The notes under the pieces were generated by a model. It made no database searches. It was given only the letters and a program-made list of their open reading frames with translations, and had not been told where the DNA came from. From NCBI GenBank assembly GCA_030700125.1, contig JAUYKE010000014.1, positions 1 through 33,189 on the forward strand: a DNA stretch of 33,189 nt. Direction: 5' to 3'. Source of the stretch: Candidatus Colwelliibacteriota bacterium. Its GTDB lineage: Bacteria; Patescibacteriota; Minisyncoccia; UBA6257; Colwellbacteraceae. Positions 7,381 to 9,471 of this stretch are shown piece after piece. The position numbers and the translations under genes were made by a program. How positions within the stretch are numbered: position 1 is the stretch's first letter; the number at the start of each line of letters is the position of its first letter.

Positions 7381-7392
7381 AAGGGCTTGTCT

Positions 7393-8769
7393 ATGGCTAG
7401 AAAGAAAAAGAAGACGACAAAGAAAATGACTAAGAAAACCTCTTCTGGGAAGGCTAAGAAAGCTTCGACTCCTAAGGGAAGCAAGCCTAAGAAAACTAAA
7501 GTAAAGAAGAAGAAGGTAAAGGAAAAGAAGCCAAGAGCTAGTAAGAAGCCGAAGATTGTTGAGAGGGTTCGTCGCCGGCGGGTAAAAAGGAATCCTGTTC
7601 GACAGTCCTCTGCTTCTCGCGGGAAGCACTTTGTTCGTATCAAGGTAGTGGGAATTGGCGGCGGGGGAGGCAATGCGGTTACCCGGATGAGAAGAGATTT
7701 CCACACTCGGGGAATTGAGTTTGTGGTAATTAATACCGATCTCCAAGATCTGGAGAGTTGCGATGCTCACCGAAAGCTTCACATCGGCCGAGCATTGACC
7801 AGAGGAATGGGCGCGGGAATGAATCCCGATTTAGGTCAGCAGGCGGCCGAGGAGAATCGCTCGGAAATTGCCGAGGCGATCCAGGAAGCGGACATGGTTT
7901 TTCTAACGGCCGGGTTTGGCGGCGGGACCGGTACCGGAGCTACGCCAGTGGTAGCTGACATTGCTAAAGAATTAGGAATTTTAACCGTGGCGGTTGTTAC
8001 CAAGCCGTTTGCTTTTGAAGGAGCGGCCAGGATGAGGATTGCCGAGGACGGACTTATGAGAATTAAGGATAAAGTGGACACTCTTTTAGTTATTCCCAAC
8101 GACCGGATTTTTAACATTATTGATAAAAACACTCCGGTAGTTAAGGCATTTGAGAAGATAGACGATATTTTGAAAAGCGCGGTTCAGGGAGTAGCCGAAA
8201 TTATTTCTGCCTCCGGATTGGTGAACGTTGATTTTGCTGACGTAAGATCCATTATGTCCGCGACTGGAATGGCGGTAATCGGTGTCGGTTATGGAGGAGG
8301 GGCAGACCGAGCAGTAAAAGCAATTGGTGAGGCGGTCAGCTCCCCGCTTTTGGATATTTCGATTGATGGTGCAAGGAGCGTGCTCTTCGGAGTGGCGGGT
8401 GGCCGCGATCTTAAAATGACCGAAATCAATGATGCAGCCAAAATCATTGCCGATTCGGTTGATCCGGAGGCAAGGATAATTTTCGGCGCTTATTACGACC
8501 GGAAACTTAAGAACGGGCAGGTAAAAGTAATTATCGTAGCTGCCGGATTTAACGGAATGGCGATGAGGCGGGAGGAACCCTTGAACTTGTTTAACTCCGA
8601 GCTTGAACCGATGGAAGAATCAGTGAATGAGGTTGGTGGAGGTAAGAGAGCCAAAATCGGCAAGGCAACAACTAATAGCCAAATTCCTAAAACTCCAGAG
8701 GAAGAAAGCGGACTAAGTGAAGACATCTGGGAGGTGCCGGCGTTTTTGAGGAGAAAAGGCAGAAAATAG
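7393..8769 (+). CDS. ftsZ: Cell division protein FtsZ with a long Lys/Arg-rich N-terminal extension
   Basis: KVVGIGGGGGNAV, FGGGTGTGATPVVA (tubulin signature), C-terminal peptide EVPAFLRRKGRK; about 75 extra basic residues at N-terminus. Confidence 0.95.
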   Translation: MARKKKKTTKKMTKKTSSGKAKKASTPKGSKPKKTKVKKKKVKEKKPRASKKPKIVERVRRRRVKRNPVRQSSASRGKHFVRIKVVGIGGGGGNAVTRMRRDFHTRGIEFVVINTDLQDLESCDAHRKLHIGRALTRGMGAGMNPDLGQQAAEENRSEIAEAIQEADMVFLTAGFGGGTGTGATPVVADIAKELGILTVAVVTKPFAFEGAARMRIAEDGLMRIKDKVDTLLVIPNDRIFNIIDKNTPVVKAFEKIDDILKSAVQGVAEIISASGLVNVDFADVRSIMSATGMAVIGVGYGGGADRAVKAIGEAVSSPLLDISIDGARSVLFGVAGGRDLKMTEINDAAKIIADSVDPEARIIFGAYYDRKLKNGQVKVIIVAAGFNGMAMRREEPLNLFNSELEPMEESVNEVGGGKRAKIGKATTNSQIPKTPEEESGLSEDIWEVPAFLRRKGRK

Positions 8770-8892: not shown

Positions 8893-8966
8893 TAAACCTA
8901 GTATTAAACATATGTTTAATACTAGGTTTACTATAGTAATTCAGCGATCGCTGAATTACTATAGTA
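8893..8966. repeat. Two abutting 38-bp perfect palindromes (8893-8930 and 8929-8966) sharing TA
   Basis: taaacctagtattaaacat|atgtttaatactaggttta and tactatagtaattcagcga|tcgctgaattactatagta, both exact self-reverse-complements. Confidence 0.97.
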
Positions 8967-9066: not shown

Positions 9067-9471
9067 ATGGGTATTATCCAAAAAGTAAAAGAGCTTAATT
9101 TGCCTAATGGAAGTTATGTCGTGGTGGGGAGCGGGACGCTGGCTGCTTTAGGAATTAGAGAAGCTCAGGATGTAGATTTAGTTATTTCGTCGGAAGTTTA
9201 TAAAAAACTGAGACAAGAAGATTGGAAAGAGAAATCTCATGACGATGGTTCCAGCTCCCTTGTAAAAAATACTTATGAAGCGTTTCTTACTTGGGATAGT
9301 AAAGACACCAAGTCCAATTTATTAGAGGATTTGTTAGGTGACGCCCATGTCATTGATGGAGTACCGTTTGTGAATATAAAACGATTACTGGAGTGGAAAA
9401 AGCGGAAAGGGAGAGATAAGGACTTGACGGATGTGGAGCTAATAAAAGATTATCTTAAGGGGAAACCATGA
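9067..9471 (+). CDS. Small nucleotidyltransferase-fold protein
   Basis: VVVGSGTLAALGIREAQDVDLVIS: GS...DxD pattern typical of the NTase fold. Confidence 0.6.
   Translation: MGIIQKVKELNLPNGSYVVVGSGTLAALGIREAQDVDLVISSEVYKKLRQEDWKEKSHDDGSSSLVKNTYEAFLTWDSKDTKSNLLEDLLGDAHVIDGVPFVNIKRLLEWKKRKGRDKDLTDVELIKDYLKGKP

Follow-up and report, generated by a model that had tools for sequence, protein, structure and literature searches.

The window, the whole 33,189-nucleotide stretch of Candidatus Colwelliibacteriota DNA analyzed here, carries after ftsZ a pair of palindromes that are copies from two unrelated dispersed families. Comparison of sequences across the order makes it likely that these are two solo copies from two families of protein-recognition palindromes, palindrome 2 being the predicted site of a Cas2-like protein, spread in a manner resembling REP-RAYT repeats. 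Palindromes of this ~36-bp kind flank the gene of a small DNA-binding protein that has a Cas2-like domain and probably both recognizes and spreads them. The families, their linkage to a gene, the matching of their arms, their turnover, their intergenic placement and the domain make-up of the linked protein are direct observations.

Both palindromes are perfect, with 19-bp arms that are 100% complementary and without a loop, and their centers differ, being CATATG (8909-8914) in palindrome 1 and GCGATCGC (8944-8951) in palindrome 2 (Table 1). The initial annotation had thus correctly described two different, abutting 38-bp palindromes that share a TA, and had correctly placed them between ftsZ and the next genes. 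Its statement that the pair lacks a loop holds, and what it says about the missing U tract is approximately correct at best: ATTATATTTT, which is T-rich, lies 3' of the second stem, and a simple scan calls it terminator-like. The RNA folding of the palindromes is very strong (z about -8 to -10), and no Rfam match was found at them. Chance origin is negligible, because block-shuffled versions (1.2 Mb) contained 0 palindromes of score at least 13, against 68 observed. A viral origin was rejected, as neither the viral-contig scan nor PHROGs returned a relative. Neither a Cas2-like nor an AbrB-like gene adjoins the palindromes in the window, so both window copies are solo.

Table 1. Palindromes and neighboring genes in the window
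Feature	Position	Strand	Description
Palindrome 1	8893..8930	.	38 bp, perfect; member of second dispersed family
Palindrome 2	8929..8966	.	38 bp, perfect; 36-bp core 8930-8965; solo copy, family of winged-helix/Cas2-like gene
Shared TA	8929..8930	.	Fits the usual TTTA/CTA flank of the palindrome 2 family, not a constant TA duplication
Near-invariant center CGATCG, palindrome 2	8945..8950	.	Candidate cleavage or crossover point
ftsZ, upstream neighbor	7387..8769	+	460-aa ORF; match in 56/60 relatives
Next downstream gene	9067..9471	+	134-aa ORF; without Pfam match

The genome scanned (G000; 555 kb in 41 contigs) holds many long perfect palindromes overall. The second window 38-mer recurs exactly on its contig C19. 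The pattern ACTA-N10-GCGATCGC-N10-TAGT describes ten 36-bp sites of the genome, of which palindrome 2 is one and two others flank the partner gene on contig C13. Family A, with the core ACTATAGTAA-N4-GCGATCGC-N4-TTACTATAGT, comprises five perfect copies on five contigs, the window's included, and one imperfect copy in this genome, which also has a sister set (ACTAAACAAA-WW-CCGCGATCGCGG and so on); some family copies here contain A6/T6 tracts. One further, near-exact copy of the 36-bp family lies in an independent MAG (JAUSIQ010000013.1). An assembly artefact, which the initial annotation had proposed to check for, is ruled out by these copies on other contigs and in another MAG, and by the exact match of the palindrome 1 core in genome G239. 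The flanks past the T/A-rich edge are mostly unrelated among copies, which makes the palindrome alone the repeating unit; palindromy reaches past the core in most copies. Insertion at TA targets was likewise rejected, since 4 of this genome's 9 intact copies carry C:G as their 19th pair, so that the TA is not a constant target duplication.

Related genomes have their own versions of the palindrome, namely ACTATTGTAATTCCACGATCGTGG.. in G050/G069, ACTAAACAATTTCCACGATCGTGG.. in G026, ACTATGATAAATCCACGGCCGTGG.. in G199, ACTATGTTATACATGCGATCGC.. in G139 and TCTATTTAAATTCCGCGATCGCGG.. in G029. The common skeleton was matched in 18/245 genomes of the order and most matches are palindromic; a minority of weaker ones (e.g. 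in G178, G038 and G211) are probably due to chance. Copies are near-identical inside one genome and different between genomes, solo and gene-flanking copies are near-identical to each other, and a genome may hold up to 17 near-identical solo copies beside few gene units. Pairs of copies 565-820 bp apart enclose an ORF of ~190 codons in G187, G199, G139, G029 and G050; some of these palindromes in G187 and G139 are imperfect, and G050 has two close pairs, one of which encloses a different gene. The partner gene in this genome (C13:39558-40136, 192 aa) stands between an imperfect palindrome at C13:39501-39536 and a perfect one at C13:40167-40202. The imperfect palindrome is a hybrid that combines a ACTAAACAAA arm with a ACTATACCAT arm and so is intermediate between the genome's two families.

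For an unbiased test of this linkage, the order was searched for the protein and not for the palindrome. The protein is present in 137 of 245 genomes, in up to 13 copies, and in 65 of the 71 loci read its gene is flanked by palindromes (44 on both sides, 21 on one side, none in 6). At ftsZ control loci from 29 relatives a single unrelated hairpin was seen, and otherwise no such palindrome was nearby. The flanking palindromes lie downstream of the gene in 60 cases and upstream in 49, and their centers are 626-826 bp apart (median 702). The center CG[AG][CT]CG is nearly invariant and the outer arms are variable: among the half-sites of 108 gene-flanking palindromes, position 16 is C in 100% and position 17 is G in 99%. 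Over the outer 13 positions, left and right arms are 0.92 identical within a locus vs 0.38 between loci, and the own partner is the best arm match in 41/43 cases (the maximum in 2000 permutations was 0.48). Similarity of protein and similarity of arms are correlated significantly but weakly (Mantel r 0.15). Where the center is asymmetric, the two copies of a unit are in direct orientation in 4/5 cases. Within a sample of the phylum, relatives of the protein occur in 84/287 genomes, nearly all outside this order, and about 10 of 27 loci of these relatives show like palindromes, often with CGGCCG. The search for each palindrome in the genome and its relatives that the initial annotation had suggested places each in a dispersed family tied to its own DNA-binding-protein gene.

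The genomes contain several other palindromes as well. A further family in G050 (contigs C11 and C19; loci L105-L124) has the core CTGATATxCTTAAGxATATCAG, with outer arms that differ and stay palindromic; examples are C11:23190-23229, C11:27648-27685, C19:46972-47007 and C19:108782-108809, and another lies in G087 (L175:2242-2283). The same G050 contig C19 carries two copies of a ACTATCACGCGTGATAGT family at C19:119734-119767 (L120) and C19:25480-25511 (L116), one of them ~700 bp from a PaaX/Cas2-like gene; this palindrome and gene may form a unit with another center. A further family in G000, centered on CGGAAATTTCCG, occurs at C13:40471-40512, C10:8408-8443 and C5:60-93. In G189, which carries 10 PaaX/Cas2-like genes, several different long palindromes, at least five, lie within ~300 bp (L150, positions 1436-1746, C37:6493 region), and locus L165 holds a cluster of two different palindromes.

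The linked protein begins with a winged-helix half, and its C-terminal domain is of the PaaX_M/Cas2-like type (PF20803, E 1e-13 to 1e-15, with a score above the curated cut-off); its match to PF09827 is weak. Seven residues are invariant in 71 relatives (F124, D125, P127, E128, R134, W136 and S152). The AlphaFold model (pLDDT 86.8) has its best PDB fold matches in E. coli PaaX (probability 0.94) and in Cas2 proteins (up to 1.00), none of them at E<=0.001. The protein scores 23-27 bits against the PaaX equivalog TIGR02277, whose cut-off is 264.55, and 25.0 bits against the Cas2 model TIGR01573, whose cut-off is 24.5. No cas1 gene or CRISPR array was evident in the units read, and no phenylacetate (paa-type) genes lie near the gene in the loci examined, where the neighbors are unrelated.

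Palindrome 1 belongs to a family with the core CCTAG-N2-TT-N-AAC-N4-GTT-N-AA-N2-CTAGG. The full 38-mer has no second copy in this genome; its 30-bp core, CCTAGTATTAAACATATGTTTAATACTAGG (8897-8926), is exact in G239, a member of another family of the order, and the pattern is found also at G000 C6:21923, at G000 C19:20000, in G016 and in G125 (a reversed control pattern gave matches in 2/244 genomes). In G239 and at the C6 site the pattern lies directly upstream of a gene for an AbrB/MazE-like protein of 57-61 aa (PF04014, E 1.3e-7 for the C6 protein). Its distance to the start codon ranges from a few bases to about twenty, and it adjoins a box resembling TATAAT or TATGAT. Palindrome 1 looks like a solo copy of this autoregulator's operator-like site, against which a copy of the palindrome 2 family abuts.

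Comparison of orthologous loci shows that the palindromes come and go. Within genus g9, G026 has solo palindromes at its uvrA-uvrC, glyS-exonuclease, parA and beta-glucosidase loci; its congeners showed nothing comparable and intact at the orthologous loci, G022 having a decayed-looking palindrome at uvrA-uvrC. A gene unit stands beside trxB in G000, G026, G018 and, more degenerate, G025, and its arms have diverged. The motif GTGGATAAG (GTTGATAAG in L212), the reverse complement of the DnaA-box-like TTATCCAC, adjoins the trxB-locus palindrome in three species (L220, L212 and L214) and one solo copy (bgl, L210), which suggests co-copying of ~13 nt. G050 and G069, at ~75-83% nucleotide identity, have site F in common and site E with different arms; several more sites, A, D and G among them, have a palindrome in just one of the two genomes. 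The G069_C34 site is filled and its G050_C19 counterpart empty. A single filled/empty pair aligns well, and its two sequences differ by ~68 bp, a length greater than that of the palindrome. Neither a precise junction nor a clean target duplication could be identified. The nested insertion at TA suggested by the initial annotation is supported insofar as units occupy sites that are empty in relatives, and fails with respect to the TA targets. On contig C34, the copy that follows a glycosyltransferase gene has a counterpart of 97.5% identity in an independent MAG despite flanking genes of ~70% identity, so a host function may explain why some copies are retained. Together, the filled and empty sites and the conserved C34 copy speak for gain and loss, plus strong conservation of some copies.

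In three genomes, 32 copies were examined, and every one of them is intergenic. By simple ORF-based gene calls, 10 of them (31%) lie between convergent genes, vs 11.5% of gaps, and 3 of the 32 between divergent genes. Copies that are all intergenic, enriched between convergent genes and few between divergent ones are not placed as ordinary operators would be.

We propose a compact unit in which a palindrome, a gene of ~190 codons and a second palindrome follow one another with centers ~700 bp apart, and we infer that the linked protein binds, cleaves and transposes the palindromes. Palindrome 2 would be a cognate site of the C13:39558-40136 protein, which is encoded elsewhere in the genome. 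The winged helix would read the variable arms, and the Cas2-like domain would pair two subunits symmetrically over the CG[AG][CT]CG center, where it may also cut. Palindromes would thereby be copied to new intergenic places and stay there as solo sites, following the logic of REP-RAYT systems by means of an unrelated protein. A point against this model is that the family A arms are unlike the arms at the single partner gene detected in this genome (ACTATAGTAA vs ACTAAACAAA); both share ACTA and GCGATCGC, and one gene-flanking copy is a hybrid, and a single protein may serve both. No Cas2-like domain is known to transpose DNA. The broader proposal, that a protein combining a Cas2 fold and a winged helix drives an undescribed class of palindrome-based mobile DNA by recognizing gene-specific arms, acting at an invariant center of the CGATCG type and dispersing perfect palindromes across ultra-small bacterial genomes, could equally prove right or wrong.

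The main rival explanation casts the Cas2-like protein as a conventional repressor of the PaaX type and the palindromes as its operators, with the flanking ones for autoregulation and the solo ones for a regulon, and nothing moving. The nearest solved full-length relative is indeed the repressor PaaX, the palindrome 1 family resembles an AbrB-type operator, and the palindromes, with arms matched to the gene, suit a dimeric regulator; in this respect the initial annotation, which had offered a dimeric-protein site, was on the right track, as the palindromes are of the kind that a symmetric protein would bind. However, solo copies are not promoter-centered (10/32 convergent against 3/32 divergent), they vary among congeners, palindromes are no less frequent downstream of the gene than upstream, and the Cas2-type motif is invariant, D125 included. 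A repressor with a regulon explains poorly why a copy flanks the gene downstream, why copies favor gaps between convergent genes and why they turn over, and we consider it unlikely; if the protein were merely a repressor with scattered operators, the novelty of the system would be lower. Solo palindromes could also be scars, left when a whole unit moves and recombination between its palindromes deletes the gene, as in solo LTRs. The direct orientation of the asymmetric-center units and the near-identity of solo and gene-flanking copies are consistent with such an origin, which is nonetheless quite unlikely given up to 17 near-identical solo copies vs few units per genome, and no intermediate was seen.

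It is very unlikely that the palindromes are in essence bidirectional intrinsic terminators or intergenic RNA hairpins. Their strong RNA folding, the T-rich tail after the pair, the enrichment between convergent genes, the A6/T6 tracts of some copies and the palindromy past the core in most would all fit termination, which may be a secondary use of the palindromes. A simple terminator has no need, though, of a fixed CGATCG center, gene-matched arms or paired copies round a gene, and no U tract lies within the arm of the window copy; the initial annotation likewise called a standard terminator unlikely. Cruciform formation, another of the initial suggestions, would on its own leave sequence families with a fixed center and matched arms unexplained. 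An origin as classical REPs that a Y1 (RAYT) transposase mobilizes, or as miniature insertion sequences with TA target duplications, would fit the layout, which is that of REP-RAYT units (PMC2817692), and the TA flanks of some copies. It is extremely improbable, as the Y1 transposase domain PF01797 was matched neither in G000 nor in five further genomes with palindromes (G026, G050, G069, G187 and G150), most copies lack a loop or unpaired tag, and the edge is C:G in nearly half of the intact copies of this genome. G029, G139 and G199 hold Y1 genes, yet the gene between the palindromes there is the Cas2-like one.

The closest known parallel to the Cas2-like-linked palindromes is the REP/RAYT system, in which short palindromes flank a small DNA-processing gene and scatter between genes, often downstream of ORFs, with arms that are species-specific yet still palindromic (PMC2817692, PMC3733652). 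Both systems feature a gene flanked by two copies of a repeat dispersed elsewhere in the genome (here 44/71 on both sides and 21 on one), and the trxB-locus unit keeps its place while its arms change, just as orthologous RAYT genes keep their place while the flanking REPs change (PMC2817692). They differ in that the linked protein here combines a winged helix with a Cas2-like domain in place of a Y1 HUH transposase, and that the palindromes are loopless and mostly perfect, with a fixed CG[AG][CT]CG center and without a GTAG/CGTC tag. Each genome has about 10-17 copies, a number that REPs often exceed, and flanking copies are mostly direct where orientation is readable. The absence of a Y1 domain from this genome, and of a loop or tag from the palindromes, argues that this is not a REP/RAYT system.

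Resemblance to other systems is similarly partial. The linked protein shares a winged helix and a central PF20803 domain with PaaX regulators (E. coli PaaX, PDB 8a39, its top fold match), but has ~190 aa vs ~300, with palindromes on both sides and many solo sites. With CRISPR Cas2 it shares the FDIPE...R...QKSVW motif and the ferredoxin-like fold, which is here fused to a DNA-binding domain and accompanied by palindromes rather than spacer-repeat arrays. Like mobile elements, the palindromes have filled and empty orthologous sites, but unlike IS630/Tc1-like TA-duplicating elements they show no constant TA duplication. As for intrinsic terminators, one T-rich tail follows palindrome 2, and termination would leave the fixed center and matched arms unexplained. 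Palindrome 1 resembles the sites of AbrB/MazE-type autoregulators in that a same-core palindrome lies immediately upstream of the gene in G239 and at G000 C6, and differs in that the window copy has no such gene and has AAACC instead of TTGCCC as its outer bases.

No published description of a Cas2-like palindrome system was found in the open-licence literature, and an earlier account may exist elsewhere. Since only its general layout is shared with known repeat systems, we regard the system as new in kind, and the class of ~36-bp palindromes linked to Cas2-like genes is apparently widespread and undescribed. If our reading is correct, likely binding sites can be assigned for a protein family found in 137 of the order's 245 genomes, and dozens of natural protein/site pairs of differing specificities become available for decoding how winged helices read the arms. 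It would also reveal a DNA-mobilizing role for the Cas2 fold outside CRISPR, which bears on the open question of what Cas2-like domains do there and where they originated. Overall, these palindromes and their gene would then represent a second, independent solution to the role filled by REP-RAYT repeats, built on the Cas2 fold.
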